Shown piece after piece: positions 5,805-62,414 of a stretch of 64,000 nt of DNA (within the stretch, counting starts at the first letter, position 1; every line of letters begins with the position of its first letter). Source of the DNA: an uncultured Clostridia bacterium (GTDB lineage Bacteria; Bacillota; Clostridia; Peptostreptococcales; Anaerovoracaceae); contig CAKQNZ010000001.1 in assembly GCA_934255435.1 (NCBI GenBank), forward strand, positions 1 through 64,000, written 5' to 3'. The notes beneath the pieces are model-generated. The model was given only the letters and a program-made list of their open reading frames with translations, was not told the DNA's origin and searched no databases. Made by a program: the position numbers and the translations under genes.

Positions 5805-6116
5805 ATGGTAGAGAAATCGTGGTCTTTTTTTGAAAAATCTACCCTCGCAGTAAACAGCCCGTCAACAAAGCCGCTGCCGCCGTGACAATGGTAGAGTTTC
5901 TGATGATTTTTTTATGATTATCTACCATTGCAGTTCATATCGTCATCATACCTGCTGCGCACCTGCCATCCGCCGGCCTGCATACCGCCCGGATGGTAGG
6001 TTTTCGATAAAAATCTGTTCAAAACTCTACCATCAGCATCGTCGCATCATGGATACCCACGGCACATCAGATGCTACAGTAGGTTTTTCAAAAATAAACA
6101 GCAAAAATCCTACCAT
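5805..6116 (+). repeat. Array i: four 41-bp imperfect palindromes (CTACCAT type)
   Basis: Four elements at 5805-5845, 5888-5928, 5993-6033 and 6076-6116, each exactly 41 bp. They begin ATGGTAG (ACAGTAG in the last) and end CTACCAT (CTACCCT in the first), around a variable T/A-rich core. Start-to-start distances are 83, 105 and 83 bp, so units one and three, and two and four, are each 188 bp apart. No reading frame is shared. A 38-bp direct repeat beginning CATCACGATCCCGGC follows (6114 and 6152). The array fills most of the 5725-6294 convergent intergenic region. Confidence 0.85.
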
Positions 6117-6294
6117 CACGATCCCGGCCGACAACAGACCAGCCTTGTGTGCATCACGATCCCGGCTGGCAACAGACCAGGCTTGCGTGCGTTGCGAACG
6201 GTCAAAATGACTGATCAAAAAAAGTGCATCCGCCGGGCTGCCTCCAGCACCAACTGATACACCGTTAATGTCTTTTCACGGACATCACGATCCG

Positions 6295-6756
6295 CTATCT
6301 TGTACAGATATAGTATATGTACGCCGCGTACATGGCGATCATTATGCCGCCTTCAAATCTCCAGAGCTGTTTCTTTCTCCATGCCATGCAGAGCACTGCC
6401 ATGCTTATCACAATCAGCACCACGGTATCCACGAGATTGCTGGAAATAAAGTCCATCGGGCTTATGACGCCTGCAACTCCCAGTACGAACAGTATATTGA
6501 ATATATTCGATCCGATGACATTGCCGACTGCTATATCGACTTCGTTCTTGCGTGCCGCCACGATGGAAGTCGCAAGTTCCGGCAAGCTGGTGCCGAAAGC
6601 CACTATCGTCAGCCCTATCAGCATCGGCGGCACTCTCAGCATCTTGGCAACAGATGAACTGCCGTCAACAAAAAAATCCGCCCCTTTTATCAGCAGTATG
6701 AATCCTACGACAAGGATAAAAAACGATACAAATATATTTTCCATAATATGCTCCAT
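6295..6756 (-). CDS. Half-size sodium/calcium-exchanger-like membrane protein (single repeat)
   Basis: 153 residues, about half the usual length of the CaCA/YrbG family, whose members normally have two inverted repeats. The N-terminal part (LIKGADFFVDGSSSVAK) looks like the start of repeat one, while the second part (GTSLPELATSIVAARKNEV, GNVIGSNIFNILFVLG, and the YAAYIYYIC ending) looks like repeat two of full-length proteins. An internal deletion between the homologous repeats would produce exactly this. It could work as a homodimer, like proposed ancestors of the fold, or be inactive. It lies 45 nt downstream of mntP, so it probably shares the Mn-responsive transcript. Confidence 0.7.
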   Translation of the reverse strand: MEHIMENIFVSFFILVVGFILLIKGADFFVDGSSSVAKMLRVPPMLIGLTIVAFGTSLPELATSIVAARKNEVDIAVGNVIGSNIFNILFVLGVAGVISPMDFISSNLVDTVVLIVISMAVLCMAWRKKQLWRFEGGIMIAMYAAYIYYICTR

Positions 6757-6801
6757 TCTACTGTCAGCAGGCCATCCATGCGAGCCGCTGCAGTCGTTTT
6801 A

Positions 6802-7359
6802 TCACAGTATACCCACGCCTTCCAGCAGTATCTTCACACCTATTGCAATGAGTATGATACCGCCGAACAGCTCCGCCTTTGATTTATATCTCATTCCGAA
6901 GAGGCTGCCGATCTTGACGCCGATGGCCGAACATACGAAGGTCACGGCACCGATGAAAGACACCGCCGGCACTATAGAAACTTTGAGAAATGCAAAAGTC
7001 ACGCCTACTGCCAGTGCGTCTATGCTGGTAGCCACCGCCAGTATGAACATGCTTTTCACATCCATAGCACTGTCCACGTTCTCATCGCCGCCGAAAGATT
7101 CCTTGACCATATTGCCACCTATAAGAAGCAGCAGTATGAATGCTATCCAGTGGTCGTACCTTGTGATGAGATCTGCGAAAAAGCTTCCGAGAAAATATCC
7201 CGTCAGTGGCATCAGTGCCTGGAACCCGCCGAACCACGCTCCTGCGATACACATATGCTTCCATCTGATTTTACCGAGGGAAAGACCTTTACATATGGAC
7301 ACCGCAAAAGCATCCATGGAAAGTCCCACCGCCAGTATGAACAATTCAAGAAATCCCAT
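6802..7359 (-). CDS. mntP: Manganese efflux pump MntP
   Basis: 185 residues, six predicted membrane helices in two related halves with the acidic motifs of MntP ([13 protein letters not shown] near the start, [13 protein letters not shown] near residue 115). MntP exports Mn2+ and protects against Mn overload. It is the first gene of a two-gene operon with the exchanger-like protein. The long leader contains features of the yybP-ykoY Mn riboswitch, which commonly controls mntP. The ATG is preceded by a modest AGGAGA. Confidence 0.92.
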
Positions 7360-7499
7360 TTTATTCTCCTGTCTCCTCTTTGTTTTCCTGCATACACTTT
7401 ATGATCTCCAGGCTGCCGACATTCTTTATCACTGCTTTGCTGAAACATATCGAACACCGCTGCCATCAGGCGTTCTTCGACACATTCCCTCTGCTGTAA

Positions 7500-7795
7500 A
7501 AACAAAAAACTCACAGACAGCGCAAAAATGCTGCCCATGAGTCTCATCATTTAAAGTAATACCGGGCAGCCTGCTGCCGGCGACCTGTATTCTGCTGATG
7601 CATTGCCGGATACCTCTTAGATGCATGACCTTCAGGTCTGCTGCATATATTTCAGCTGCTGCCATTATGTCGATAGAACTGCATACCTGCGAAAGTTCCT
7701 CACCTTTCGCTGTGCGCTGCTTTGAGCCTCCTGTCCTGTAAAAACGGACCGGCGGCCGATCTTGTCTGCACGGTATGCCGACTACTCCCTCCTGG
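7500..7795 (-). promoter_or_regulatory. Candidate yybP-ykoY manganese riboswitch upstream of mntP
   Basis: Reading the minus strand from about 7795, the leader starts with GGAGGGAGTAG, resembling the conserved GGGGAGUAG of the family. After a long, hairpin-rich insert it has GCCCGG (about 7566-7571) and GATGAGAC (about 7541-7548). A G/C-rich stem with GCAGC/GCTGT and a T-rich run (GTTTTTTGTTTTT) closes the leader as a possible terminator. The insert is longer than in typical members. The assignment depends on remembered consensus and on mntP being a standard target. Confidence 0.55.
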
Positions 7796-8110
7796 AAATC
7801 CTGTACAGTGTACCATGTTTCAACATCGATTTCAATGATAAATCTCAAAGATTTTATTGAATATGCCGGCAAATAAGTTTAAACTGGTTACAGATGTACA
7901 AGCCGCAGCGGTGGTTATGCAGCTGCGTATGCAGCAAGCTGCCGGATCCGGGAGGTCTGATACTCTCAGCATCCTGTCCCGGCAGAGGCTTTGCTGGGAT
8001 ACTGCGAGTTCTGTCTGCGGTCTCATGTATCATATGATCACAGGGACTTCATGGCATTATCAGCAGCCCAGACGGATGTACACGAATTCAAATTCATGGA
8101 GGTTATAAAA

Positions 8111-8482
8111 ATGAAAAAGATCCACACTGACAAAGCGCCTGCAGCAGTAGGCCCTTATTCACAGGCAATCGAAATAAACGGAATGGTATACACATCAGGT
8201 CAGATACCTCTCGACCCGGCAACAGGCGAGATCGTTGGCACTGATATCGCATCCCAGGCTCAGCAGGTAATGAAAAATCTCATGGAGGTCCTTGCTGCAG
8301 CAGGAACAAAGCAGGAAAATACAGTAAAGACAACATGCTTCCTCAGCAGCATGGACGATTTTGCAGCTTTCAATGAAGTATATGCACAGTACTTCACAGA
8401 AAAACCTGCAAGATCATGCGTAGCAGTAAAAACTCTTCCTAAGAACGTGCTCTGCGAAGTAGAGCTTATCGCAACTGTATAG
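8111..8482 (+). CDS. ridA: RidA family enamine/imine deaminase
   Basis: 123 residues covering the whole YjgF/YER057c/UK114 fold, with TSGQIPLDPATGEIVG, the ARSCVAV segment carrying the catalytic Arg, and the CEVELIA ending with the conserved Glu. RidA hydrolyses the reactive 2-aminoacrylate/2-aminocrotonate and imines released by PLP enzymes such as threonine deaminase. It lies 27 nt upstream of ilvA, a direct functional pairing. The start at 8111 follows ATGGAGG; the in-frame extension upstream is not family-like. Confidence 0.95.
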   Translation: MKKIHTDKAPAAVGPYSQAIEINGMVYTSGQIPLDPATGEIVGTDIASQAQQVMKNLMEVLAAAGTKQENTVKTTCFLSSMDDFAAFNEVYAQYFTEKPARSCVAVKTLPKNVLCEVELIATV

Positions 8483-8509
8483 CTCGAAGCGTTTTTCGGA
8501 GAACACAGC

Positions 8510-9730
8510 ATGAAAGAACTTACACTTGAAAAATTTGAAGAAGCTGCGGAGCTGGTCAAAAACGTCACGCTGCCTACCAGTCTGGAATACAGCGAAAGCC
8601 TCAGCAGCAGGACCGGCGGCAAGATCTATCTCAAGCCGGAAAATATGCAGTACACAGGCGCATACAAAGTCCGTGGTGCATATTACAAAATCGCAACACT
8701 GACCGACGAGCAGCGTGCGAAAGGTCTCATCACTGCATCGGCAGGCAACCATGCCCAGGGCGTGGCTTATGCTGCAAAGAAATTCGGCTGCAAGGCTACT
8801 ATAGTCATGCCGACGGTGACGCCTCTCATCAAGGTAAACCGCACAAAAAGCTACGGAGCTGAGATCGTCCTTCACGGTGACGTGTACGACGACGCCTGCG
8901 AAAAGGCACTGGAGCTGGCAGAAGAACACGGCTACACGTTCATCCACCCTTTCGATGATCTTGCGGTGGCTACCGGTCAGGGCTCCATTGCAATGGAGAT
9001 CGTGCAGGAACTGCCTACCGTAGACTATATCATCGTCCCTATCGGTGGCGGCGGTCTGATAACCGGCATTTCCACACTGGCAAAGATGCTGAACCCGAAG
9101 ATAAAGGTCATCGGCGTGGAGCCTGCGGCAGCTGCCAGCATGACAGCCGCCCTTGAAAAGGGCGAGCCTGTGACACTGCCGAGCGCCAACACGATAGCTG
9201 ACGGAACAGCCGTAAAGAGGGTCGGCGAGACGATTTTCCCATACTGTCAGGAAAACATCCATCAGGTACTCACTGTCGAAGACAACGAGCTCATCGGAGC
9301 ATTCCTTGATATGGTGGAAAATCACAAGCTGATAGTCGAGAATTCCGGGCTTTGGGCTGTAGCAGCACTGAGGCAGCTTGATCTCAAAGGGAAAAAGGCA
9401 GTTGTCATCCTCAGCGGCGGCAACATGGATGTCATCACGATGTCCTCTGTGGTACAGCACGGTCTGATCCAGAAAGACAGGATCTTCTCGGTATCCGTCC
9501 TGCTTCCGGATAAAGCCGGAGAGCTTGTGAAAGTCGCAAGCATCATCGCAAAAGAAAAAGGCAACGTCATCAAGCTGGAGCACAACCAGTTCGTCAGCAT
9601 CAACAGGATCAACGCTGTTGAGCTGCGTGTCACAATGGAAGCCTACGGCACAGAACACAAGATGGCGATACTCAGGGCACTGAAAGAAAGCGGATACAAA
9701 CCTGAACTGGTGGATACGAAACTGTACTGA
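8510..9730 (+). CDS. ilvA: Threonine ammonia-lyase (threonine deaminase) with ACT domain
   Basis: 406 residues. The PLP-dependent catalytic domain (about 1-320) has the Schiff-base Lys53 in TGAYKVRGA and the glycine-rich phosphate loop GGGGL. A C-terminal ACT domain (about 325-400) follows. The enzyme converts threonine to 2-oxobutanoate and ammonia, via the enamine that RidA clears. A single ACT domain and this length fit the clostridial form that can be catabolic or biosynthetic; no other ilv genes are nearby, so threonine fermentation to propionate is plausible. A shared hairpin terminator follows. Confidence 0.93.
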   Translation: MKELTLEKFEEAAELVKNVTLPTSLEYSESLSSRTGGKIYLKPENMQYTGAYKVRGAYYKIATLTDEQRAKGLITASAGNHAQGVAYAAKKFGCKATIVMPTVTPLIKVNRTKSYGAEIVLHGDVYDDACEKALELAEEHGYTFIHPFDDLAVATGQGSIAMEIVQELPTVDYIIVPIGGGGLITGISTLAKMLNPKIKVIGVEPAAAASMTAALEKGEPVTLPSANTIADGTAVKRVGETIFPYCQENIHQVLTVEDNELIGAFLDMVENHKLIVENSGLWAVAALRQLDLKGKKAVVILSGGNMDVITMSSVVQHGLIQKDRIFSVSVLLPDKAGELVKVASIIAKEKGNVIKLEHNQFVSINRINAVELRVTMEAYGTEHKMAILRALKESGYKPELVDTKLY

Positions 9731-9777
9731 TAACATTCCACGTCAGATACAGACCGCCAGCCTTGTAACAGTAAACC

Positions 9778-9845
9778 AAAAAGAGTCCGGCATGTACGAT
9801 CGACAGTTGAATGTCTGTTTTGTACATGTGCCGGACTCTTTATAA
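9778..9845. terminator. Bidirectional long-stem terminator after ilvA
   Basis: About 18-bp inverted repeat built on AAAGAGTCCGGC and GCCGGACTCTTT with inner ATGTAC/GTACAT. T-rich flanks occur on both strands. It overlaps the broken end of the YczE-like remnant. Confidence 0.75.
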
Positions 9846-10075
9846 TTTTCGTTTCTCTGCCCAGCAGGATAACCTGCAGTATCATAAAAAGGAAACTGAA
9901 GATTATCGTCCAGTTTCCCAGTGTCAGCGCCGGTATTATAAGAGACAGTGTATAAGGCAGCGCCGATATAGGGGGTATCCCCAGCGAAGCTTTCGCAATG
10001 AAGGCTATTCCGAAGGAAACGAACATGAGCCCTGCAAAAAACACACAGTAACGTCTCGCTATTTCTTTTTTTCAT
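9838..10075 (-). pseudogene. Truncated, frameshifted YczE/YyaS/YitT-family membrane protein remnant
   Basis: The minus strand from the ATG at 10075 encodes only the first two or three membrane helices of a YczE-like protein (FFAGLMFVSFGIAF, AKASLGIPPISALPY, LGNWTIIFSFLFMILQV), then stops at the terminator. The family is normally about 200 residues. The frame from the ATG is also broken: a run of seven A directly follows ATG, and six A would give a natural MKKKEIARRYCVFFAG start. The remnant is thus both frameshifted at a homopolymer and deleted at the 3' end. Confidence 0.7.
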
Positions 10076-10375
10076 GATGATTCTCCTGTAGATATGATCA
10101 TACATTATAATCGTATCACGATTTCATGCATTTGTTTGCTTGATAATCGCTACTTTTTTGCCTTGTTTTTAAAATTTTGTGGACGACAGAGGCTCCCAGA
10201 TACAGCAACACTGCCGTCAATCGCCTTGAAAATCAGTGTTTTCAGACTTTTAACACATCGACTCCTCCATAACCACCAGATATCCGGCTCAGGCTTTGAA
10301 AATATGCTATCTCAATGGTATACTTTGAATATACTTTATTGTATCTGTTTTCATTGGTCGGAAGAAGGTAACGAT

Positions 10376-11416
10376 ATGATTTCAAACACACTGTTCATCA
10401 TTTATATGATAATGTGTTTCCTGAGTCTGCAGGCTATAACGCTGGTTCTGATTATAAGGAAACACAATGTCACCGGCAGCACGAAACTGGTCAGAGCTGC
10501 CCGGAATTTTGCCATCGTGTCCCTGCTGCTTGGGCTGGAATACTACATCTCATATTACCGGGAACTTGTGCTGAACGAATTTGCAGCAGGCCCGCTCATG
10601 CGTGGCATCGACTCCATAGTTTTCTATGCTATGGGCTACACTTGGGTAAAGCTCATAGACGCCATCATCGACTCTCAGGACCACCGTATGGAAAAGCTCC
10701 GCAAACTCACCGACCGGATCTTCCCATGTCTTATGGTGCTATCAGCAGTGATATATATTTTCCTGCTGGACGAATACTACTCCACTGATGTCCCATGGCA
10801 GGAAGTCACGGTCATCATCGGCGAAGGCATGCTGGGTGTTGCTGTGATGTTCTTTACAGCTGCATTTATCCATATTGGTTACAGAGAAATCACGGACACA
10901 TTCAGTCGCAGATACATCATCATCGTAAGTATATTCGTATGCTTCAATACGCTGTGGAACAATACTGTGGTAGTCCTGGTGTTCATCCACGCTATACATC
11001 TTTCCCTGCAGTGTTCGAAACTGTATGCTGTCACATCGCTGATGCTTATCATCACCAATGCTCTTACCATAATGTATATATACAAGAAAGACTTCACGCC
11101 GTTTTTCTTCGGAGACAGCCAGTCGCAGTCACGGCAGCTCACTGAAGAGGAGGCCCTCGACCTGGTCGCACAGGGTCACAAACTTACTGAACGTGAGCGT
11201 GACGTCATGATACTGGCATATCAGGGCCTCACAAATCCTGTGATCGCAGAAAAGCTGTACATATCGCCCCATACTGTCAAACGCCATATGCACAATATCT
11301 TTGAAAAGCTCGACGTTTCCACAAGAATGGAGCTGGCACATCTGGTACAGTCGCAGATCTCAGGAAAAAGAGGCAACAGCACCGGCAAAGAAAAGACCTC
11401 AGCAGCGGATCATTGA
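10376..11416 (+). CDS. Membrane-bound LuxR-type transcriptional regulator
   Basis: 346 residues. The N-terminal two thirds (about 1-255) carry seven or so predicted membrane helices. The C-terminus (about 275-335) is a LuxR/GerE helix-turn-helix (LTERERDVMILAYQGL, IAEKLYISPHTVKRHMHNIFEKLDV). Such regulators probably sense a small molecule or membrane state and control neighbouring transport or catabolic genes. The next gene downstream is a dehydrogenase 880 nt away on the same strand. Start 10376 has GAAGAAGG upstream; the longer ORF extends into an AT-rich promoter region (10076-10375, with TATACT-like boxes) that otherwise shows nothing. Confidence 0.8.
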   Translation: MISNTLFIIYMIMCFLSLQAITLVLIIRKHNVTGSTKLVRAARNFAIVSLLLGLEYYISYYRELVLNEFAAGPLMRGIDSIVFYAMGYTWVKLIDAIIDSQDHRMEKLRKLTDRIFPCLMVLSAVIYIFLLDEYYSTDVPWQEVTVIIGEGMLGVAVMFFTAAFIHIGYREITDTFSRRYIIIVSIFVCFNTLWNNTVVVLVFIHAIHLSLQCSKLYAVTSLMLIITNALTIMYIYKKDFTPFFFGDSQSQSRQLTEEEALDLVAQGHKLTERERDVMILAYQGLTNPVIAEKLYISPHTVKRHMHNIFEKLDVSTRMELAHLVQSQISGKRGNSTGKEKTSAADH

Positions 11417-13584: not shown

Positions 13585-13694
13585 GCAGCACAGGTCATGA
13601 TCTCAGCAGGGAGACCGAAACACAATAGTTACTGATTCCTTCTTCTATGATCCTCTCCCTGCATAATCTATAAAGCAAACACTTGCATAGTCAA

Positions 13695-16355: not shown

Positions 16356-17651
16356 TTAGCTTACATTTTCATGAAGCTCTTCCTGACTTATCCTGTTCTT
16401 GTAATAGAATTTCTTCGAGCAGAATATCCCTCTGAGGATCGCTGATATGAACAGCAGCGCCGCCATCAGCAGGAACGCCGGAGTATATGAACCTGTCAGA
16501 TCGTAGATCACGCCCACGATGGATGACCCGAAAGCCACACCTAATGCGATGAATATGTTCAGGTACGCTATGAACCTGCCGATCTCCTTTTCCCCGAACA
16601 TATGGTTCATCACCAGCGGTGAGATAACATTAACGGCCGGACATCCGAATCCGTAACCAAGTATCAGCACTATCACCAGCCACGGACAGCTCGGTATTGC
16701 AACAGTTGCCAGGAAAGCTATCCCGAATATCACCGATACAGCCACAGCACCTGTGCTCAGTTTGAACCTGTCACAGTAAGCGCCTACGACAATCTGGCCT
16801 ATGATCAGAGCCCCGAACATAAGCGAGAATACAGATGACGCCATCGTGTTGGAGAGCCCGCCCAGTTCAAGGAAAGGCATAGTGTGGCTCAGCAGTGTTC
16901 CTGAAGCGATGGTTATAGCCATTGCAGACAGCAGAACGATCCATGTGGACGGTCTTTTCAGTGCACGTCTGAATGTAGCACCCTCCACCTCGCCTTTGTC
17001 CACAACAGGCGTCTCGTCCAGCTCACCTTTTCTTGCCAGGCCCATATCCTCCGGCGACCACTTCATGAAGACCAGCACGCACGGAATGCATATCACTGCA
17101 AGACATACGCCGATTATCAGATAGCCAGCTCTCCAGCCCAGATGCTGCACGATGATGTTCATCACCCACGACATTATCATGGCCCCCAGAGGCGAGAACA
17201 GCAGTCCCAGCGCCAGCCCCCTGAGCTTCATGCCGAACCAGTTGCTTATGATGACCGTACACGGCGTGCTCGTCAGCAGCGAGAAGCAGAACCCCTGAGG
17301 TATGGCCAGTATGTAAAAGTGCCACAGCTGCTGCGCCGATGCGAACCCGATGAACGACGCCGCCCCGCATATGGCCGCAAAGACCATTATCTTCCTTATA
17401 TACTTCTTAGTCATTTTGCTCTGGAAAATGAACAGCGCCAGCACACTTGCCAGGCATTGTATCGTTATGTACAGCGAAAACTGCCCTATGCTGAATCCCA
17501 GATCCTCCGTCAACGGAAGGAAGAACACCCCTGTTATCGAAACTATACACGAATATCCGAACACTACCAGGATGAACCCCGCCAGAGTCACCCACCATCC
17601 GAAATAGACCTTACCGCCGGTATCGAATAATTTGCTTTCCTTATCCTTCAT
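16356..17651 (-). CDS. MFS transporter, oxalate/formate-antiporter-like family
   Basis: 431 residues, twelve predicted membrane helices. FGWWVTLAGF near the start, the conserved RGLALG loop and a long cytoplasmic loop around residues 200-220 resemble the OFA and monocarboxylate branch of the major facilitator superfamily. Such carriers exchange small organic acids. Downstream and upstream neighbours (MerR, a broken amidohydrolase) give no firm substrate. It is preceded by mosaic element M2, which carries a terminator separating it from the pseudogene upstream. Confidence 0.8.
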   Translation of the reverse strand: MKDKESKLFDTGGKVYFGWWVTLAGFILVVFGYSCIVSITGVFFLPLTEDLGFSIGQFSLYITIQCLASVLALFIFQSKMTKKYIRKIMVFAAICGAASFIGFASAQQLWHFYILAIPQGFCFSLLTSTPCTVIISNWFGMKLRGLALGLLFSPLGAMIMSWVMNIIVQHLGWRAGYLIIGVCLAVICIPCVLVFMKWSPEDMGLARKGELDETPVVDKGEVEGATFRRALKRPSTWIVLLSAMAITIASGTLLSHTMPFLELGGLSNTMASSVFSLMFGALIIGQIVVGAYCDRFKLSTGAVAVSVIFGIAFLATVAIPSCPWLVIVLILGYGFGCPAVNVISPLVMNHMFGEKEIGRFIAYLNIFIALGVAFGSSIVGVIYDLTGSYTPAFLLMAALLFISAILRGIFCSKKFYYKNRISQEELHENVS

Positions 17652-19533: not shown

Positions 19534-19668
19534 TCGTATCGAAAACTCCCCGTATTTCTTCCATTTCGATACTTTACGGTGTTCCCCGAGGCTGGCGTTT
19601 CAACGATTCGGGCCACTGACAGGATCGTGATGTGCGAAAACCTGTATCTGCATTTTTCTACGCCATGG
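19534..19668 (+). repeat. Array ii: one clear and one decayed 41-bp palindrome
   Basis: Element at 19534-19574 with arms GTATCGAAAA and TTTCGATACTT. At the expected +94 position (19628) lies a weaker version (GTGCGAAAA ... TTTTTCTACGCCAT). It fills part of the 19419-19700 gap between the LuxR remnant and the T-box promoter. Confidence 0.6.
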
Positions 19669-21831: not shown

Positions 21832-21966
21832 AAGGGACGAAACCAATGGCTCAAATCTCGGTTTCGTCCCTTTTTGTAATTATTTCCGGATCCGATTGCT
21901 GCCGATAATGCCTGCTTTTCTCTGATGGGTCGTTTTTGATGTGAATCCTTCTCTTTTCGATACATT
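21832..21966 (+). repeat. Array iii: two 41-bp elements; the first doubles as terminator
   Basis: First element 21832-21872: perfect 12-bp arms AAGGGACGAAAC/GTTTCGTCCCTT followed by TTTG, a working terminator for the ligase. Second at 21925-21966: left arm ATGGGTCGTTTTTGA, right arm TTTTCGATACATT, i.e. a left half of one arm type and a right half of another. Confidence 0.8.
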
Positions 21967-36602: not shown

Positions 36603-36832
36603 ATGGGTCGTTTTCGAAGTTAAAATCCGAAAAAACGTCCCTTTGGAACTCAGCTGCCTCCGGCTGACCGGTTTTACGGCCTGCTGGCTTTGCCCAATGG
36701 GTCGTTTTTGACCGAATTTCTGCTGTTTTCGATAATTTTCCAGCTCCGGCAGCTGATCTGACCAGTGTGTCAGGCTATCGCAGTTACTGTATGGGTCGTA
36801 ACTGGCACTGTGTGGCTTCTGTTTCGTCCCTT
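36603..36832 (+). repeat. Array iv: three 41-bp elements at 94-bp spacing
   Basis: Left ends ATGGGTCG at 36603, 36697 and 36791 (94 and 94 bp). Right arms AACGTCCCTT (36643), TTTTCGATAATT (36737) and GTTTCGTCCCTT (36832; one base longer). The middle element has the left arm of one type and the right arm of another. The 53-bp intervals are unrelated to each other. It lies in the 36296-37178 gap, which has no other feature except the terminator at 36946. Confidence 0.85.
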
Positions 36833-49250: not shown

Positions 49251-49279
49251 CCCGGCAGGCGGACCTGCCGGATCAGTTT

Positions 49280-50428
49280 TTACTTTATCCCGTAAAAACG
49301 CATTGCGTTCCGTTTCGTCTGCTTTGCAACGGTCTCGAAGGATATTCCTTTTATCTCTGCGATCTTTGCGGCTGTATGCTCCACATAAGGCGGCATGTTC
49401 GGCCTGCCGCGGAAAGGTGCCGGCGTGAGATATGGCGAGTCGGTCTCCACCAGCAGGAAGCTGAGGGGTATCTCACTGACCATCGCTACAGTCTTGCGGT
49501 TGTTCTTGTATGTCACCGGCCCTGCCACTGAGATCGTGGCTCCCATCCGGACATACTGTTTCCCAAGCTCGGCGCTGCCTGAAAAACAGTGGAGCAGCAC
49601 CCTGGCGTCATCGCACATTGAGACGTTACTTTCGGCATTTTCCCCGGTATGCTCCGGAGCGCCACAGTCAAGGGCGATGCTGGAAGATGCGGCAGCTTTG
49701 GATCCGGTCGTATCTGTATCAGTGCCTCCGTTGCTTCCAAAGGCCCCATCAGCTATGCATGACTTTCCAGTGAAAGATGCCGGATCGCGTTCAGAGTCCG
49801 TGTCTGCAGGCAGCGCCGATTTGCCATCTGCAAAACCTGCATCACTGTTTCCGCAGTCTTTGCATGATACGGCGTCACCGCACGAATACCCGGATTTTCC
49901 ATGGTTTTCTTTGCATACTGCCGGTCTGCCGGTCACATAGCCCTCCGGATCGGGACGCTTCGGGAACCAGCTTTTGCGCTCATCGGAAAAAGCCCCCTCT
50001 TCCTTCAGTATATCCATGACCTCCTGGTCGGCCTCACGGGCGTGTATGGCTATGGGCATTTTCAGCTCGTTGGCAAGGCGTATCTGCCTGCGGAACCACT
50101 CCCGCTGGACGTCGCGGTCAGAAAGATCGTAATGATAGTCGAGACCTATCTCGCCGATGGCCATGACTTTATCCCTTCCCGCTATCTCACGGATCATCTG
50201 CAGCTTCGCTTCATCCATATCCTTCGTGTCGTGAGGATGGCAGCCTGCCGCAGCATAACACCATGGGTATTTTTCAGCCTGCTCCGCCGCCAGCAGCGAG
50301 CTGGCCGGATCGAAGCCCACGTTCATGACATAGTCCAGCGGCGATTCCTCTATGGCTCTGACCCAGGCCTGTCTTTCCTCCTCCGTTAACTCTCCGTTAT
50401 TAAGATGCGCATGTGAATCAAACAGCAT
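49280..50428 (-). CDS. tatD: TatD-family metal-dependent hydrolase with a large Cys-rich insertion
   Basis: 382 residues against the usual 255-265. TatD motifs are intact on both sides: SHAHLN at the start, GCHPHD, IGEIGLDYHY, IAIHAREA, then VLLHCFSGS and ETDSPYLTPAP. Between DILKEEGAF (about 148) and VLLHCFSGS (about 277) lies about 128 residues of low-complexity Ser/Gly/Asp/Ala sequence with seven Cys (172, 183, 189, 192, 224, 255, 272). TatD proteins are DNases or RNases in repair and turnover. Order metG-tatD is conserved in Firmicutes. Confidence 0.88.
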   Translation of the reverse strand: MLFDSHAHLNNGELTEEERQAWVRAIEESPLDYVMNVGFDPASSLLAAEQAEKYPWCYAAAGCHPHDTKDMDEAKLQMIREIAGRDKVMAIGEIGLDYHYDLSDRDVQREWFRRQIRLANELKMPIAIHAREADQEVMDILKEEGAFSDERKSWFPKRPDPEGYVTGRPAVCKENHGKSGYSCGDAVSCKDCGNSDAGFADGKSALPADTDSERDPASFTGKSCIADGAFGSNGGTDTDTTGSKAAASSSIALDCGAPEHTGENAESNVSMCDDARVLLHCFSGSAELGKQYVRMGATISVAGPVTYKNNRKTVAMVSEIPLSFLLVETDSPYLTPAPFRGRPNMPPYVEHTAAKIAEIKGISFETVAKQTKRNAMRFYGIK

Positions 50429-51823: not shown

Positions 51824-52241
51824 AAGTAACGTTTTGGAACTCCCGGATCGATGTTTTCGATACTTTTTTATTTCCGGGAGGTACCCTGACACTCTGTCGT
51901 CAGTCATGCTGATCCTGAATGTATCGAAAACCGTGTTCTATAACCCATTTTCGATACTTTTCAGAGCAAAATGTCTGAATCACAGACTGCTGATTGCTGG
52001 CGGCACTGATAAATGGGTCGTTACCACTACTTCTTTTCGCCATTTCGTCCCTTTCCACTTCGACACTCGCTGTCATGGTCGCTCTGACTCCGGGTGATCG
52101 CTGCTGATGGGTCGTTTTTGACTTCCAGACTGCCGGTTTCGATACTTTCTGAGGCGTGACGACCGAATCATCAGCTGCCAGCAGCTGGCAGCATTGAGCG
52201 ATGGGTCATTTTGGGCTTTCTGACTACTGATTTCGATACTT
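51824..52241 (+). repeat. Array v: five 41-bp elements at exact 94-bp spacing
   Basis: Right ends at 51865, 51959, 52053, 52147 and 52241, each exactly 94 bp apart. Left arms: a weak AAGTAACG, ATGTATCGAAAA, ATGGGTCGTTA, ATGGGTCGTTTTTGA, ATGGGTCATTTT. Right arms: TTTTCGATACTT, TTTTCGATACTT, TTTCGTCCCTT, TTTCGATACTT, TTTCGATACTT. The first measures 42 bp, the rest 41. Elements four and five join one left-arm type to another right-arm type. The 53-bp intervals between elements are GC-rich and unrelated. Confidence 0.9.
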
Positions 52242-55577: not shown

Positions 55578-55736
55578 TGCTGCACCTCCTGCAAAGGACG
55601 CATCTGCGCCCTCATCATACACACATACCCGGACCGCAAGTATGCTCATAAACCGCAGTCCGGCAGCAGGGCCGACACCCTGCTCCATCTGATATGAGTA
55701 TAGCACCCGTGCCAGCAGCTTTCAAGACTGCAGGGT

Positions 55737-55904: not shown

Positions 55905-55933
55905 TCGAAAGGCAAAATGGGATACAAAAAAAC

Positions 55934-55967
55934 TGCCGCACAGAGATCATCTGCACGGCAGTTATAT
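55934..55967 (-). terminator. Terminator of the cytidylate-kinase-like gene
   Basis: AACTGCCG/CGGCAGTT stem with a 17-nt loop and seven T on the minus strand, about 90 nt past the stop. Confidence 0.8.
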
Positions 55968-56054
55968 GAACAGATTTTCAGATATTCGACCTGTCTGCTT
56001 GACAAGGTAGCATATCAGATGCAGCTGCCTTTTGATTATTCGGTTCTGTTTTCG

Positions 56055-56687: not shown

Positions 56688-56891
56688 GTCAGTACCTCCT
56701 GATATTTATATAATATTCTAACACTTCCTGCCTTTAAATACAAATGCAAAATCACCCTTGTTTTCTGATACTGCAGGCTTTACATATATCAGACAGGCAA
56801 AAAGGAACTCCGGCGGCACCTTTGATCTTGGGAGGATCTTCGGTGCAGCCGGAGCCTGGTTTGAAATCAGTTCTTGATAAATGTTATTTTA

Positions 56892-58397
56892 TCAGAACAG
56901 GAAATGTATAGCTAACGCAGCAAGCGGGATCGCAACGATAGTTCTTTCGAGGAAGCATACGAGGAGCTCCCAGAATTTTATCGGTGACTTTGTTGCCAGC
57001 ATAACAGTTGCAGTCTCCGAGAAAAAGATTATCTGTACCATCGATACGAGGCAGACGAATATTCTGGCTTTCATACCTATAGCCACTGTTGCTGCTGTTC
57101 CGTTCATTACCAGAACAGGCAGGAACATCTCTGCGATACCAACCGGCATCGATGGTGCGATAGCTGCTGCATCAGGTACCTGACAAAGCATAAGGAGGGG
57201 CTGGAATATATATCCGAGCCATGTGAATACCGGCGTGTATTCAGCGATTATCATAGCTGATACACCTACACCGGAGATCATCGTCAGTACCTGCGGCATT
57301 ATTACAACGCTGTCTTTAAGGCTAAGCCCTACATCTTTGTGCAGACCTCTTGAGATCGCTGCACGTGTCACAGCTCTCCTGCATCCACGAGGTATAGTCT
57401 GTGAATCATATCTCACTTCACCTTTACGTTCTTCGTCAGTCTGTTCCTTGCCATTATAGAAAATGTTCTTCTTGCGGCTTACAGGCGGTATCCTTACCAT
57501 TATCATCTCAAGGATGAATACCATGATGAAGCTGATGAAGTATATCTTTGCAAAATTCGATCCGCATCCGGCGGTTTCTATGACCAGACCTGCGAATCCT
57601 ATACTTACTGCCGAGAATCCGGTCATGATAGCAACCATCTCTTTTTCAGTATAGACATTGTTTTTCCATAATCTGTTGGTTATCAGCACGCCCAGTGAGG
57701 ATGAGCTTACGAATGACGCTGTAGCATCCAGTGCTGCCTTTCCAGGCACTTTGAACAGCGGTCTCATCAGTGGCTCCAGCAGAGCACCTACTATCTCGAG
57801 TATGCCATAGTTCAGCAGGAACGGCATGAACACCGCACCAACGATGATTATTCCGAATACGCCCTTGCAGACCGGCGGGATAACGTTGCCGCCTGTGGAG
57901 TCGCTGACGATCATTTCAGGTGCGTTCACACCGAGTGTCAGCCACAGAGTATATACCAGGACATATATGAATCCCAGTGCGAACAGTACAGTATGTACGA
58001 CTGTATCGTTCTCGTATACATCAAGCAGTATGTTGGAATGTTTGCCTCTGTCTATGTATTTGCGGTAAACGTGCAGACACAGGTTTCCGCCTATGAGGAC
58101 AGTCAGTATCCAGTATATGACGTTTCCGAACAGGTCCAGGAACCCGTTGTAAAGGAAACTGAATATGGTCTCCGAGCTGCCGTCCGCTTTAGGTATCGAG
58201 CAGAAGAATACTGCTATACCTATGGCGCTGCATATCAGGAACAGCAACAGACCTTTCATTTTACGGCTTTTGCTCAGCTTCAGCTCGTCCAGTTCTGCGG
58301 ACTGCATGTCCGGATCGAGTTCAGGGACGATGTCGTCGATGATCTCATCAACGACATCTGCTCCTTTTTTCTTTATATCTACTGTATTGGAATCCAT
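56892..58397 (-). CDS. YjiH-type membrane protein with nucleoside-recognition (Gate) domains
   Basis: 501 residues, about eleven membrane helices, with two gate-type segments (LNYGILEIVGALLEPLMRPL and YIFQPLLMLCQVPDAAAIAP) typical of the YjiH/nucleoside-recognition family, plus an acidic N-terminal leader of about 45 residues. The family is proposed to transport small molecules; substrate unknown. It follows speB by 3 nt, so it is translationally coupled to agmatinase. A role in moving agmatine, putrescine or urea is a fair guess from context only. Confidence 0.8.
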   Translation of the reverse strand: MDSNTVDIKKKGADVVDEIIDDIVPELDPDMQSAELDELKLSKSRKMKGLLLFLICSAIGIAVFFCSIPKADGSSETIFSFLYNGFLDLFGNVIYWILTVLIGGNLCLHVYRKYIDRGKHSNILLDVYENDTVVHTVLFALGFIYVLVYTLWLTLGVNAPEMIVSDSTGGNVIPPVCKGVFGIIIVGAVFMPFLLNYGILEIVGALLEPLMRPLFKVPGKAALDATASFVSSSSLGVLITNRLWKNNVYTEKEMVAIMTGFSAVSIGFAGLVIETAGCGSNFAKIYFISFIMVFILEMIMVRIPPVSRKKNIFYNGKEQTDEERKGEVRYDSQTIPRGCRRAVTRAAISRGLHKDVGLSLKDSVVIMPQVLTMISGVGVSAMIIAEYTPVFTWLGYIFQPLLMLCQVPDAAAIAPSMPVGIAEMFLPVLVMNGTAATVAIGMKARIFVCLVSMVQIIFFSETATVMLATKSPIKFWELLVCFLERTIVAIPLAALAIHFLF

Positions 58398-58400
58398 TTT

Positions 58401-59354
58401 TTATTTACCTGCCTGTTTCTTTGCCGCCAGTATCGAAAGATATTCGAATACGATGTTTGCAGCCAGGTACGCTGTCGTTTCACCTGCTGTGTCATATGCA
58501 GGAAGAACTTCAACGATATCGAAGCCTATGAAGTTCAGATCCTTGATACGTCTTACGATATCCAGGGATTCATACGAAGTGAATCCGCCTACTTCCGGTG
58601 TACCAGTTCCTGGTGCGTATGCCGGGTCTACGAAGTCGATATCGAAAGTCAGGAAACATGGTGTGTCGCCTACACGGTTCAGGATCTCTTTGATGAGAGC
58701 GTCGAATCCCATTTCACGAACTTTGTGTGCAGGGATCAGTTCCATTCCCAGTTCTGCTGCCAGCTTGTGCTCGTCAGGATCGTAAAGTGATCCTCTCATG
58801 CCGATCTGGATCGAGTGTGACGGATCGATGAGGCCTTCTTCGATGGCTCTGCGGAACGGCGTACCGTGGTTGTATTTCTGTCCGAAAACTTCGTCGCACA
58901 GGTCTGAATGTGAGTCGAAGTGCACCAGCGCAACTTTGCCGTGCTTCTTTGCTACTGCACGGAGTTCAGCCAGTGTGATGGAGTGGTCTCCGCCCAGTAC
59001 GATAGGTACTGCACCTGCTTCACAGATCTTGCTCACGCCTTCTTCGATGGCGTCGTAAGTAGGGTGGATATATCCAGGAGTCACATTGAAATCTCCCAGG
59101 TCAGCGCCTTTGAGGCTGTCCATGATATTTACCTGCAGGATAACATTGTTAGGCTTCATCATTGCTGAAATGCTTCTGATAGCTGCCGGACCGAAACGTG
59201 ATCCCGAACGGAATGAACTTGCTGTATCGAACGGCGCTCCTGCGATGGCGAAGTCAAGACCTTCTGCTGAGTCGAGTCTCGGCATCCTCATAAAAGTTCC
59301 CATATTGCAGAAACGTGGTGATGATAAAGCGCTTGCTGGTTGTTTTACATTCAT
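58401..59354 (-). CDS. speB: Agmatinase (ureohydrolase family)
   Basis: 317 residues with all binuclear Mn-site motifs: GGDHSIT, HFDSHSD and DIDFVDPAYAPGTGTPE. It hydrolyses agmatine (or a related guanidino compound) to putrescine and urea. The YjiH-type gene follows immediately and a LysR regulator is divergent upstream, the usual layout of a regulated catabolic pair. GAGGAGG precedes the ATG. Confidence 0.9.
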   Translation of the reverse strand: MNVKQPASALSSPRFCNMGTFMRMPRLDSAEGLDFAIAGAPFDTASSFRSGSRFGPAAIRSISAMMKPNNVILQVNIMDSLKGADLGDFNVTPGYIHPTYDAIEEGVSKICEAGAVPIVLGGDHSITLAELRAVAKKHGKVALVHFDSHSDLCDEVFGQKYNHGTPFRRAIEEGLIDPSHSIQIGMRGSLYDPDEHKLAAELGMELIPAHKVREMGFDALIKEILNRVGDTPCFLTFDIDFVDPAYAPGTGTPEVGGFTSYESLDIVRRIKDLNFIGFDIVEVLPAYDTAGETTAYLAANIVFEYLSILAAKKQAGK

Positions 59355-59735
59355 TGTGAAATCCTCCTCTTCAGTTATCGTGATTCATTTGCTTGCGTTA
59401 TTGCATACTTCCTCATGTTGTTATACAATTAAACAGATGGTGTACAAATATGACACATCCTCTCTTGTTGGTGCTATACTAACATATACAGACAGAGTTT
59501 GTCCTATTTCATATAGTTATAGGTTATATTGTAAACCATATAACCCCTTCTGTCGGACGGACTTGTGCAAAGTCCCGGACCGCTGTAATGATGGGGCGTC
59601 CCGCCTTTTTGGAGTCATCGGACCCGTTCCGACAAAATCCGTAAAAAAATTTTGATTTTTTATCAGATATGATATTTTTTTAACGAAATATACATTCTGG
59701 TCTGTATAATGCATAAGCTGAAAGGAGACCCTGAA
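59355..59735. other. Divergent regulatory region between speB and the LysR gene
   Basis: 380 bp, AT-rich. A TATACTAACATATAC block near 59471-59488 and a TTATACAATT block near 59417-59427 are promoter-like, and the position suits LysR control of speB. No clear long dyad, riboswitch or gene was found. Confidence 0.45.
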
Positions 59736-60635
59736 ATGAATCTTAATTCTTTTGTATACGTTGCTGAGATCGAGCGATGCGGTTCTATAAACAGAGCGGC
59801 GCAGAATCTTTATACATCCCAGTCCAACCTCAGTACAGCGCTGAAAGCTCTGGAAGAGGAGCTGGGATACCCCATATTCAGACGTACCAGCAACGGCAGC
59901 GTGCCGACTCCGGAGGGGTATCTTTTCATACAGTCCGCCAAGGCGATACTTGAGGAAATAGACAAGATAGAGGATATCCCCCAGCGTACAGGCATCGGCG
60001 ACACCATCTCCCTGACATGCAACTGGTCTGCCCAGGTGCTGCAGTGTCTTGTTGATTTCAAGGAGCACAACCATCCGGAAGCTCACGACACCTACCGTGA
60101 GACCAGTATCGTCCAGACCTTCGACTGTATCTACGAAAACCGCTACAGACTGGCAATGGTGGACTGTTTCCACTCCAATCTGGAAAAATACTGCGAAATG
60201 GCCAGAAAAACCAATATCGAGCCTATCGTCATGCAGCAGGATATCCCGGCAGTAGCGCTGATGTCCGATTCACATCCGCTGGCACATAGAAAAAGTGTAT
60301 CTCTGAAGGAAGTCTATTCCTACCCGCTGGTACTGTTCGAGGATTACAGCAATGCTGAATCCATGGAGCTGATGAGGCTGAAACCGTCCCAGCAGATACT
60401 TTATCTGTATGACAGGGGCGGTCTGCTGGACGTAATGCAGACAAGCGAAAGTATATCGATATTGAAGAAGAATACCTTCGTGGACCTTGAAAAATACGGG
60501 CTGGTGGAGCTGCCTATCTACGATTTCCCTGATACATATGATATAGTCCTGCTGAAGCGCAGCTACTATCAGCTGAACAGCCGTGAGGAGGCTTTTATAA
60601 AGCACCTGCAGGAACAGATGCAGGCCGGCAGCTGA
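59736..60635 (+). CDS. LysR-family transcriptional regulator
   Basis: 299 residues. N-terminal winged helix-turn-helix (FVYVAEIERCGSINRAAQNL, QSNLSTALKALEEELGYPIF, residues 5-60) and a C-terminal periplasmic-binding-protein-like effector domain (about 90-295). Divergent from speB, so it probably controls agmatine or arginine use in response to a metabolite of that pathway. Start 59736 has AAAGGAGACC upstream. Confidence 0.88.
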   Translation: MNLNSFVYVAEIERCGSINRAAQNLYTSQSNLSTALKALEEELGYPIFRRTSNGSVPTPEGYLFIQSAKAILEEIDKIEDIPQRTGIGDTISLTCNWSAQVLQCLVDFKEHNHPEAHDTYRETSIVQTFDCIYENRYRLAMVDCFHSNLEKYCEMARKTNIEPIVMQQDIPAVALMSDSHPLAHRKSVSLKEVYSYPLVLFEDYSNAESMELMRLKPSQQILYLYDRGGLLDVMQTSESISILKKNTFVDLEKYGLVELPIYDFPDTYDIVLLKRSYYQLNSREEAFIKHLQEQMQAGS

Positions 60636-60698
60636 CAGTTACGGCGATCCGGGCTTTCATTTTCTTTGATTTCAACTCCATGAAAATTCAAAAAAGCC

Positions 60699-60729
60699 TT
60701 GACCTGAACCTGACTTGAGGTTGTATGAT
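60699..60729 (+). promoter_or_regulatory. MerR-type promoter with 19-bp spacer before the flavodoxin gene
   Basis: TTGACC (60699-60704), 19-bp spacer, TATGAT (60724-60729). Inside the spacer lies the dyad ACCTGAAC-CT-GACTTGAGGT (60702-60721). The long spacer is the defining feature of MerR-activated promoters, and the dyad matches the one before the MerR gene (15620-15639) at 16 of 20 positions. Confidence 0.8.
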
Positions 60730-60992
60730 TGAGCTATAGACAAAACCGGGCTTTCTGACGAATTTATATGTCCGCCTGAGGGCACATACACCAACTTCAG
60801 GGGCAGTGGTGCCGTCGCAGGCTGAGGCGGACCTTTGGAATCTGAAAAGATCCCGCAGAAACTCCGGTACCGGTAAATATGCTGATATCCCCTGCAGCTA
60901 CCGTCTCCCGAAAAGGCGGCCCTCAGATTTCAGAAGCACCGGCAATGATACTTTTTTAACAATAACGTAAATAAAAGACAGGCGTGATAAAA

Positions 60993-61472
60993 ATGGCAAT
61001 GATACTGACAGCTTATTTTTCAGCAGGCGGCATTACCGCAGTAGCAGCAAAGACACTGGCGGAGGCAGCAGGCTCGGACCTTTACGAGATCCGCCCGGCA
61101 GTACCATATACGAACGCTGACCTCGACTGGATGAACAAGAAAAGCCGCAGCAGCGTGGAGATGAATGACCTTTCATGTCGTCCTGAAATAGCAGGCAAAG
61201 TCGACGATATGTCCGGCTACGATACGATCCTTCTCGGCTTCCCGATCTGGTGGTACAGAGAACCCAGCATAATCGACACTTTCCTCGAGAGCTATGATTT
61301 TATCGGTAAAAAAATAATCCTGTTTGCCACATCAGGGGGCAGTGGATTCGGCAAAACAGTCCACGGACTGAGAAAACTTGCACCAGGATCCGAAATCGTC
61401 GAAGGCAGACTTCTTAACGGCAGACCCAGCAAAGAAGAACTCAAGGAATGGCTCGCAAGCCTGGGATTATAA
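60993..61472 (+). CDS. Short-chain flavodoxin-family protein
   Basis: 159 residues of the flavodoxin fold: ILTAYFSAGGITAVAAK phosphate loop, ILLGFPIWWYREPSIIDTFLE, and FATSGGSGFGKTVHGLRKLAP. The family includes electron carriers and NAD(P)H:quinone-type reductases; FMN is the expected cofactor. The long leader (about 250 nt) follows a MerR-type promoter, so expression is likely induced by a stress or small molecule. Start is uncertain: ATG 60993 or a GTG three codons upstream; the ribosome site is weak for both. Confidence 0.8.
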   Translation: MAMILTAYFSAGGITAVAAKTLAEAAGSDLYEIRPAVPYTNADLDWMNKKSRSSVEMNDLSCRPEIAGKVDDMSGYDTILLGFPIWWYREPSIIDTFLESYDFIGKKIILFATSGGSGFGKTVHGLRKLAPGSEIVEGRLLNGRPSKEELKEWLASLGL

Positions 61473-61745
61473 AAAAAAAAAGTGTGCAAGACGAAATCTT
61501 TGATTTCTTTGCACACATGTTGCTGCTGTGCAGCAACGCATTTCATGTACTTTTTTGCCTTTCTGTCCGAAGAACCGCAAGGTGATTCGCCAGACAGAAC
61601 GGACAGCGTAGCCGCAGGCGCAGGAGCGAGCATCAGCGAGCGTTGAAACTCCGGAAATATCTCCAACGGAGATATTTCCTATGTTAGAACAAAAGTGGCT
61701 TCGCCACGTTTTATCATATGAAACTTTTGTTGATATCACGGCAAT
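61473..61745 (-). repeat. Mosaic repeat M5, full-length with terminal hairpin and T run
   Basis: Read on the minus strand: GAACAAAAGTGGC-family hairpin (complement at 61687-61736), GGAAATATCTCC/GGAGATATTTCC hairpin, CAACGCTCGCTGATGCTCGC...CGCTGTCCGTT module, GGACAGAAAGGCAAAAAAGT, AAATGCGTTGCTGC/GCAGCAACATG hairpin, and GTGTGCAAAG/CTTGCACAC with about ten T. It matches M2 and M3 block by block. It abuts the flavodoxin stop from the opposite strand. Confidence 0.85.
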
Positions 61746-61944
61746 ATCTAAAATGATATTGCTTCCATATTAACAAATGTCGATGCAGCTATAAATAACG
61801 GTTGCAACCCTCGCATAAAACATGCCTTCTCCCCCTGCTGAAAGTCAGATAACAGCTCTGATAAGCAGACCCCCGGCACGATATGTGGGGGTTTTCTTTA
61901 TAATCTGGTGAGCCGCAGATTTCCCCGGAAAGAGAACTGCGACC

Positions 61945-62036
61945 TGCATGGAACAAAAGTGGCTTCGCCACGTTTTATCATATGAAACTTTTGTTGATAT
62001 TCCGGAAATATCGAAAACGATATTTCCTGCATAATA
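61945..62036 (-). repeat. Mosaic repeat M6 (partial copy)
   Basis: A 50-bp stretch (61951-62000, beginning GAACAAAAGTGGCTTCGCCA) is identical to 61687-61736 in M5, exactly 264 bp away. It is followed by a GGAAATATC/GATATTTCC hairpin of the same module class. A GC-rich hairpin with ACCCCCGGC/GTGGGGGT arms lies between the copies (61868-61897). Confidence 0.8.
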
Positions 62037-62091
62037 AAAACAATCAGCGATGGCCACCAACGCTTATGCTCCAGGCTGGCAGCGGAGTATA

Positions 62092-62414
62092 ATGGGTCGT
62101 AATGGCTCGGTTTAAATCCAAAAACGTCCCTTTCCACCGGCCTGCCCAGGACCAGCGCAGCACATCAAGCTGACGGCCTCTCCATTTGGGTCGTTATGGC
62201 TCATTTCTTTCACAAAAACGTCCCTTTCCACGGGTTCGCCCGGTGCCAGCGCAGCACATCAAGCCGGTGACCTTTCCACATGGGTCGTAATAGCTCGTTT
62301 CATACCAAAAAACGTCCCTTTCCACCGGCCTGCCCAGGACCAGCGCAGCACATCAAGCTGACGGCCTCTCCATTTGGGTCGTTATGGCTCATTTCTTTCA
62401 CAAAAACGTCCCTT
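62092..62414 (+). repeat. Array vi: four 41-bp elements forming a 188-bp higher-order tandem repeat
   Basis: Left cores GGGTCGT at 62094, 62188, 62282 and 62376 and right ends CCCTT at 62132, 62226, 62320 and 62414, all exactly 94 bp apart. Here the intervals are also repeated: units one and three are near-identical and units two and four are near-identical, so the array is a two-unit (188 bp) repeat present twice. All right arms are AACGTCCCTT. No frame is shared, since 94 is not a multiple of 3. Confidence 0.92.

Follow-up and report, generated by a model that had tools for sequence, protein, structure and literature searches.

Intergenic arrays of two-armed elements spaced near whole helical turns in an uncultured Clostridia bacterium and its relatives

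The window, the stretch of 64 000 nucleotides of contig CAKQNZ010000001.1 that was analysed here, comes from an uncultured Clostridia bacterium that is probably a gut inhabitant. It carries 19 short elements, 15 of family A and four of family B, arranged as follows.

5805..6116, no strand assigned: array i, family B, four 41-bp elements (starts 5805, 5888, 5993 and 6076)
19534..19574, + strand: array ii, one element, arms (TC)GTATCGAAA/TTTCGATAC
21832..21965, + strand: array iii, two elements (21832–21872 and 21925–21965)
36603..36832, + strand: array iv, three elements (starts 36603, 36697 and 36791, the last of 42 bp)
51824..52241, + strand: array v, five elements (starts 51824, of 42 bp, 51919, 52013, 52107 and 52201)
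62092..62414, + strand: array vi, four elements (starts 62092, 62186, 62280 and 62374)

Array v lies at the 3' side of the methionyl-tRNA synthetase gene (metG). The arms of array i are of the ATGGTAG/CTACCAT type and its outer two elements are degenerate. Element 21832–21872 has complementary arms of 13 bp and is terminator-like, and element 21925–21965 has mixed arms. Mixed arms, ATGGGTCG being paired with TTTCGATAC, were frequent in the window and stayed in register; some elements are therefore not palindromes. A preliminary description of this DNA had reported at least 19 elements at six loci, all of 41 bp (a few 42) with an inverted-repeat layout. The total and the sizes were reproduced, palindromy did not extend to every element, and a second member of array ii (19628–19668) was not recovered.

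Family A was sought with a two-arm weight matrix built from 14 elements, using a cut-off of at least 12 bits on the + strand. The scan of the window returned 15 elements, namely the 14 training elements and 51824; a weak additional match at 16904 (minus strand, 10.0 bits) was discarded. The matrix score preferred the + strand in 13 of the 15, while 21832 was tied and 51824 scored marginally higher on the minus strand. Leave-one-out scores ranged from 15.4 to 33.8 bits, those of array vi not being independent because its copies are near-identical. Sixty first-order Markov resamples gave a mean of 0.12 matches of at least 16 bits, and their single top value, 21.0, is higher than what elements 19534 (15.4) and 21832 (19.1) reached under leave-one-out. 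Perfect inverted repeats alone were too weak a detector in the window, and Rfam yielded no match there at the gathering cut-off.

Centre distances between neighbours were 93 bp in array iii, 94 and 94.5 bp in array iv, 94.5, 94, 94 and 94 bp in array v and 94, 94 and 94 bp in array vi, so that all 10 distances in arrays iii–vi fall within 93–94.5 bp; array i is spaced 83/105/83 bp. The period of ~94 bp described earlier for arrays iv, v and vi is thus confirmed by measurement; as a universal constant it did not hold, being one of many near-whole-turn values. The accompanying statement that most intervals are unrelated in sequence was correct in part. The two intervals of array iv are 37% identical (z 1.6), five of the six pairs in array v are 17–29% identical, and 35 pairs compared across arrays had a mean z of 0.86 (maximum 3.7). 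The exceptions are intervals 2 and 4 of array v (54% identical, z 5.0) and the intervals of array vi (77–100%), an array with 95% matches at period 188. This likeness indicates that arrays v and vi grew partly by duplicating a two-element unit of 188 bp. As the whole explanation, simple tandem copying of a unit of 94 or 188 bp, followed by decay of the intervals, is disfavoured and we regard it as very improbable, since identity among the remaining intervals is close to or at background though the arms are intact. Neither the symmetric unequal layouts (83/105/83, 83/52/83 and 62/188/63) nor the one-turn steps of middle distance described below would follow from it.

The exact arms of the window were not recovered in relatives, all 28 genomes searched lacking them. 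Arms with one mismatch were present at six sites in five of 296 family genomes and were dismissed as chance or unrelated palindromes because a backward-pattern control also matched in more than 10 genomes; window-arm matches in seven viral contigs were likewise judged to be chance. Equal architecture with other arms was found in relatives, three genomes containing 49, 61 and 23 elements, each with 0 in its backward-pattern control; further control matches numbered four in G306 and one each in G282, G013, G011 and G003. G011, the genome of the cultured isolate Emergencia sp. 1XD21-10, has TGACCG arrays. Other arms in viral contigs gave raw counts of 88, 0 and 64 stretches, with a single site apiece and no array. 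De novo pairs (support of at least 2) numbered 82 in 14 of 80 loci from relatives versus 2 in the backward control, 3 versus 9 in the viral contigs and 2 versus 0 in the window, and runs on wider sets, which took in additional stretches as well as the window, yielded 87 versus 2 and 58 versus 0. Two of the 14 loci, L025 and L034, resemble ordinary tandem repeats. No earlier description of such arrays was found in the openly available literature searched, in agreement with the initial assertion that no described element fits. The recurrence of the same layout with other letters suggests a putative protein assembling on one face of the DNA.

The helical phase of the spacings was assessed over 35 classes from 19 arm families, taking in every family met and the off-phase spacings too. 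The best period in a scan of 6–16 bp was 10.46 bp (R 0.78), a fit that none of 2000 jittered nulls equalled. Restricting the scan to the first nine families gave 10.48 bp (R 0.93), and the ten later, sparser families alone gave no significant phase (R 0.59, 667 of 2000 nulls). Unsupervised pairs from the 80 relatives' loci, providing 26 values, also gave a best period of 10.48 bp (R 0.52, 10 of 5000 nulls). One-turn steps of the middle distance were seen in G025 (168/178/188/198, after dropping one-base-shifted duplicates and isolated matches with 3–4 mismatches, for example in L144, L151 and L153) and in the G010 arrays with a 50-bp pair (135/146/156/167.5, omitting doubtful four-mismatch neighbours with gaps of 90, 190 and 241); outer-end distances in G003, obtained by subtraction, were 230/242/252/263. 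Off-phase spacings were 50 bp in G010 (4.8 turns), 133 in L066, 48 in L042, 68 in L025, 144 in L049 and 228 in L045. Raw G010 gaps of >100 bp, doubtful four-mismatch neighbours being retained, fitted best at 10.22 bp (R 0.75) and more poorly at 10.5 bp (R 0.65). The earlier proposal of selection on spacing in whole turns is supported by these data, the other families of relatives lying mostly near multiples of ~10.5 bp.

Inverted arms may form hairpins, and the elements could be of the REP/REPIN or another hairpin type working as single-stranded DNA or RNA. Folding of 18 elements gave z < −2 in eight (three of array i, 19534, 21832, 36603, 51919 and 62186), and the terminator-like 21832 and two solo elements of G003, which are 54-bp inverted repeats, also favour hairpins. 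The remaining 10 had z > −2, four of them positive, and four mixed-arm elements ranged from −0.63 to 1.27. The T/C and A/G position showed independent variation between the two arms in 63 elements drawn from G025 and G011 (31/13/12/7, p 0.57); pairing of the arms as in REP/REPIN was thus not found, there being no covariation though 8 of 18 elements fold. Self-pairing was avoided in the interiors of G025 and G011, and no such avoidance was seen in the window's 12 interiors. IS200-type/Y1 transposases (PF01797), whose presence also speaks for the hairpin reading, were found in seven of 10 genomes (11 matches). No complete element lay within 2–3.3 kb of the eight Y1 genes checked (all but the three of G194; some loci were contig-cut), single six-letter arm words occurred near four of these eight, and a RAYT/IS200 link was rejected as unsupported. 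Hairpins would moreover give whole-turn spacing no role. Lacking arm covariation and with the mixed-arm elements unfolded, the elements look like duplex half-sites rather than hairpins, and the hairpin reading is disfavoured; we consider it improbable.

Constraint in place was measured in a single full orthologous array, where changed sites amounted to 0 of 64 in the arms, 1 of 54 in the 27-bp spacers, 12 of 78 in the interiors and 24 of 163 in the centre. Interiors and centre together had 36 of 241 changed (Fisher p 1.5e-4 for the arms), and the 359 bp contained no indel. Retention of arms and lengths while interiors drift supports the original preference for protein binding over plain duplication.

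The arrays are dispersed and placed without regard to gene orientation, flanking genes being co-oriented at 16, convergent at 11 and divergent at nine of the 36 sites (of 41) with genes called on both sides. Arrays of G011 align with non-orthologous arrays of G025 over ~300–400 bp at 66–68%, and the arrays of G003 (CCCGAGAAT/ATTCTCGG) and G024 (CCCAGCAAT/ATTGCTGGG) have their own end boxes. Terminal inverted repeats with dispersed copies, as in MITEs, were thus found in these relatives' genomes. One array of G003 is missing from G024 between orthologous genes (loss in G024 is also possible), and G024 contains isolated, relic-like end pieces. By eye, no clear target duplication was present in the G003 and G024 flanks, borders at the present/absent site were not sharp, and no insertion border could be placed exactly at the loci inspected. 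No transposase was seen between array ends, and no autonomous copy was found among the G003 and G024 end matches or the listed G010 places; draft assemblies may miss one. Extended left ends in G010 gave 11 matches, and of these C45 and C49 each have a pair of elements inside 200 bp. On C23, two sites separated by 3.06 kb were considered as possible termini of an autonomous copy; they are parts of two distinct arrays, and the genes lying between encode transporters of the ABC and EamA types.

The arrays might alternatively be owned by the host, as operators of a chromosomal nucleoid-type or looping protein kept at chosen intergenic places, with arms and protein co-evolving. In addition to the conservation of arms and length in place, this is favoured by the flank 3' of metG, where arrays with differing arms occurred in five of 74 relatives' flanks versus 10 of 2314 other tiles; this flank was picked because array v of the window sits there, and the tile background is unmatched for intergenic DNA. 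Among 3' flanks of ORFs of at least 200 aa, 14 of 863 had arrays, five of them metG flanks. L032 and L035, whose MetG proteins are 95% identical, each carry an array in this flank (arms GTTGTAA and TGTTCCAA, respectively), and L169 of G003 and L143 of G025 adjoin related genes (48% identity). Shared array neighbours other than metG were few. Against host ownership, array neighbours were mostly metabolic or housekeeping genes and did not share a family (in a scan of 83 of the 90 listed proteins no family was matched by more than three, 25 of 127 families being listed), and the hoped-for DNA-binding gene tracking the elements did not emerge among the scanned proteins. The orientation data are as in random placement, and dispersed copies, absence at an orthologous site and relic-like end pieces also count against it. 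Operators of this kind are possible, though we think them less than probable. Still more tentatively, and as an unlikely case, there may be a DNA-architecture system, shared by the whole family and evolving fast, whose putative protein and half-site words co-evolve across each genome. Arrays would then persist at some shared loci, such as that 3' of metG, the recognition word would differ even between close relatives, and geometry alone, in whole helical turns on one DNA face, would be kept.

Operators of the Lac, Ara and lambda repressors and the Hin/res sites have inverted half-sites, an A/T-rich dyad and integral-turn spacing. The arrays share these traits, same-face spacing being found overall and not significantly in the ten sparser families alone, but here many arrays per genome lie at unrelated genes, the sites are long (35–41 bp), the arms are lineage-specific and the binding protein is putative. 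CRISPR and TIGR-type guide arrays have longer identical repeats and associated nuclease genes; this assignment was rejected, the conserved words being only 8–12 bp, the neighbours mostly metabolic or housekeeping and Rfam without a match. BIMEs are intergenic palindromes grouped with REP/REPIN. Like REP/REPIN with RAYT, as treated in PMC3116915, the elements are dispersed, extragenic, inverted words with their own words per genome. In contrast to REP/BIME/REPIN palindromes, a hairpin is not required, several duplex sites are helically phased and the checked Y1 genes have no complete element. Short transposons and Paramecium internal eliminated sequences show a ~10-bp length periodicity, read as end-to-end looping in PMC3464196, which also cites helical-twist studies and work on IS50 and IS1. 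The helical repeat quantises element length in both cases; the present arrays differ in that their internal sites are phased too, many of their sites are palindromes with two arms and the arms are under constraint in place, and neither a transposase nor a target duplication was found.

Our preferred reading, held with modest confidence, is that the arrays are mobile-like units to which a putative dimeric protein binds, bringing together sites on one face of the DNA. Each element would be a duplex site for such a protein, with two inverted half-sites of 8–12 bp about three helical turns apart and A/T beside the arms and at the dyad. Two to seven sites spaced near whole turns would place the bound dimers on one helix face, from which they could join in a single complex, looped or wrapped. 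The arrays would be copies of miniature intergenic units that are dispersed and resemble mobile elements, mobile now or in the past, and whole-turn spacing may persist since a short loop has to bring the ends and the internal sites together. The protein would most likely be a recombinase or transposase type or a derivative, encoded elsewhere, and rapid evolution of protein and arms would give each lineage its own words. Counting against this reading, the arm constraint in place exceeds that expected of a dead mobile element, the autonomous copy, transposase and clear target duplication are all unseen, and the ten sparser families show no significant phase by themselves. The off-phase spacings, the poorer fit of the raw G010 gaps at 10.5 bp and the absence of self-pairing avoidance in the window's interiors also weigh against it.

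If this reading is correct, many lineages would have kept helical geometry but not sequence, and this would be rare, direct evidence of selection on the three-dimensional arrangement of DNA. The arrays would then serve as a helical-twist experiment performed by nature in many replicates and as an example of a protein and its sites co-evolving rapidly, and would offer a defined bait for catching a putative DNA-binding protein. Motif searches relying on sequence alone would miss such systems.

Family-A elements (arrays ii–vi) were identified with a two-arm weight matrix, and their left arms include ATGGGTCG, AAGGGACG and GTATCGAAA, and their right arms CGTCCCTT and TTTCGATAC; array i carries elements of family B, with ATGGTAG/CTACCAT arms.

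Positions of two-armed elements in the intergenic arrays of the window
Array i, family B (n = 4): 5805, 5888, 5993, 6076
Array ii, family A: 19534
Array iii, family A: 21832, 21925
Array iv, family A: 36603, 36697, 36791
Array v, family A: 51824, 51919, 52013, 52107, 52201
Array vi, family A: 62092, 62186, 62280, 62374

The 15 family-A elements scored 15.4–33.8 bits in leave-one-out evaluation, and Markov resamples of the window gave a mean of 0.12 matches of at least 16 bits, with a single maximum of 21.0. Scores were higher on the + strand for 13 of the 15, with one tie and one slightly higher on the minus strand. All ten neighbour distances in arrays iii–vi were within 93–94.5 bp, and array i is spaced 83/105/83. 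Within array vi the intervals are related, as is one interval pair within array v (188-bp unit), identity among the remaining intervals is at or near background, and a plain duplication model fares worse on the outcome of the tests run here. Two 38-bp tandem copies (CATCACGATCCCGGC...) lie at 6114–6190, starting with the final bases of array i, and array vi is preceded by two identical short hairpins, GTGGCTTCGCCAC then GTTTTATCAT, at 61695–61707 and 61959–61971 (264 bp apart).

G+C content was 0.58 in the intervals versus 0.34 in the element interiors. In the interiors of 12 elements of 41 bp the three arm-adjacent positions are A/T-only, G/C is tolerated deeper in and the dyad is A/T-rich. 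When 18 window elements were folded (one array vi copy omitted), z was below -2 in eight and not in ten. In 63 elements from two relatives' genomes, G025 and G011, one arm position varies, left arms having T or C there and right arms A or G, and the letters are unassociated (31, 13, 12 and 7; P = 0.57). Interior positions 2–5 from the arm were paired in 14, 14, 8 and 5 cases, against 23.9, 16.3, 16.1 and 15.9 when re-paired; no avoidance was found at position 1 (30 against 27.1), nor in the 12 window interiors. As the conserved half-sites keep register though unable to pair mutually, they speak for protein contacts, and a hairpin model likewise fares worse in these tests.

At loci L145 (G025) and L159 (G011), orthologous across ∼1.8 kb at 89.5% identity, the 359-bp array contains no indel. 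Differences numbered 0/64 in the arms, 1/54 in the 27-bp pair spacers, 12/78 in the interiors and 24/163 in the centre (arms versus interior plus centre, Fisher P = 1.5e-4, from this one array). The pair spacers have a common A/T box in 28 half-arrays from 14 arrays. Array content is unequal at the orthologous sites L146/L160 and L143/L175; judged by eye, the difference resembles an in-register contraction.

The window's exact arms were not found in the relatives searched. Genome-wide pattern counts were 49 in G025 and 14 in G011 (backward-pattern control 0 and 1; two of 13 genomes positive), 61 in G010 (control 0), and 4 in G001 and 1 in G002 among six genomes. Counts were 23 in G003, two in G024 and one in G301 (three of 41 genomes positive; control 0 in G003, with control matches in three other genomes). 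The arms are thus lineage-specific. De novo searching of the metG surroundings, 80 loci with 1.37 Mb in all, gave 82 equal inverted-repeat element pairs against 2 for the control, spread over 14 loci, two of which resemble plain tandem repeats; viral contigs (1.43 Mb) gave 3 pairs against 9. By eye, GACAC-type arms adjoining metG in Emergencia-like genomes (L049 9230–9320; L012, upstream of metG) form a second element family, and an intergenic region of G159 (L091 1440–1775) holds several unlike long palindromes, GGGACGGT..ACCGTCCC, GAGTTATGTGTGGA..TCCACACATAACTC and AAAAGGGACTGTCCCTTTT.

Spacing varied between lineages. Of 18 G025 loci fetched, 12 have four elements, one has two and the other five have just one; in the four-element layout pairs are 62–63 bp apart and the middle step is 168, 178, 187–188 or 198 bp. 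Most G003 arrays have three elements, spaced 73/125 or its mirror image, also 135/63, 104/72 and 115/73. Spacings were 83/52/83 in L032, 83.5/73.5 in L001 and 50/135–167.5/50 in G010, which also has two-element arrays at ∼185–230 bp. With every arm family met taken in, off-phase spacings too, 35 spacing classes from 19 arm families gave a best period of 10.46 bp (strength of phase fit R 0.78, 0/2000 nulls), the classes being merged by hand and non-independent within a family, and the G003 and G024 arms being similar. The first nine families alone gave 10.48 (R 0.93); the last ten alone were not significant (R 0.59, 667/2000 nulls). Ten 'held-out' values, from families already partly seen while the idea was formed, gave R 0.86, and an unsupervised set of 26 values, with false values and some multiples left in, gave 10.48 (R 0.52, 10/5000 nulls).

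The main rival explanation is that the arrays are host architecture. Arrays occur in 5 of 74 metG 3' flanks of relatives (L001, L010, L023, L032 and L035, the arms different in each) versus 10 of 2314 other tiles; among 3' flanks of ORFs of at least 200 aa, 14 of 863 have an array, five being those of metG. Array v likewise lies in the metG 3' flank, and the adjacent MetG (methionyl-tRNA synthetase) is 88–90% identical (best segment) to MetG of L001, L002, L003 and L048, further matches among those listed including Emergencia and Aminicella records. Going by these names, the source is probably a gut bacterium of the GTDB family Anaerovoracaceae. These flanks hint at fixed places; the recurrence may represent a common array with arms rewritten, or an insertion hot spot. 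ORFs were called on both sides of 36 of 41 sites, and these flanking genes were co-oriented in 16, convergent in 11 and divergent in 9; no neighbour family recurred among 83 neighbouring proteins, the commonest being amino-acid permease (n = 3). The window also contains a TatD-family gene (49280–50428) matched in two stretches, residues 2–145 and 273–381, the split reflecting an inserted segment of ∼130 residues.

Most G003 arrays have outer boxes CCCGAGAAT and ATTCTCGG in common, identical in two 54-bp solos, with additional boxes at constant distance and unconserved letters between them. G024 has two CCCAGCAAT/ATTGCTGGG units of 198 bp and others of 127, 76 and 35 bp, together with ends that occur in isolation. 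Seven G010 left ends have ∼65 bp of flank in common, in which boxes recur, by eye, about once per turn. A 252-bp array lies between orthologous genes in G003 (L163) and is missing from G024, which could also be loss in G024. In L163 (1360–1672) a G003 array separates a promoter-like stretch from a gene's start codon; by eye, the array's flank has a -10-like box rich in A/T, a feature that recurs in several G003 arrays. GGGGCTGTCGC / GCGACAGCCC repeats border the G024 array ends in L209, L174 and L215, giving the impression that these ends are nested within a further family of small repeats.

The closest precedent is the helically quantised length of elements that have to bring their ends together, as described for Paramecium IESs in PMC3464196. 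The best supported reading is that dimers of a putative protein would sit on the two-armed sites and, bound on one DNA face, would form a looped or wrapped complex, and that array units may spread in the manner of miniature mobile elements.
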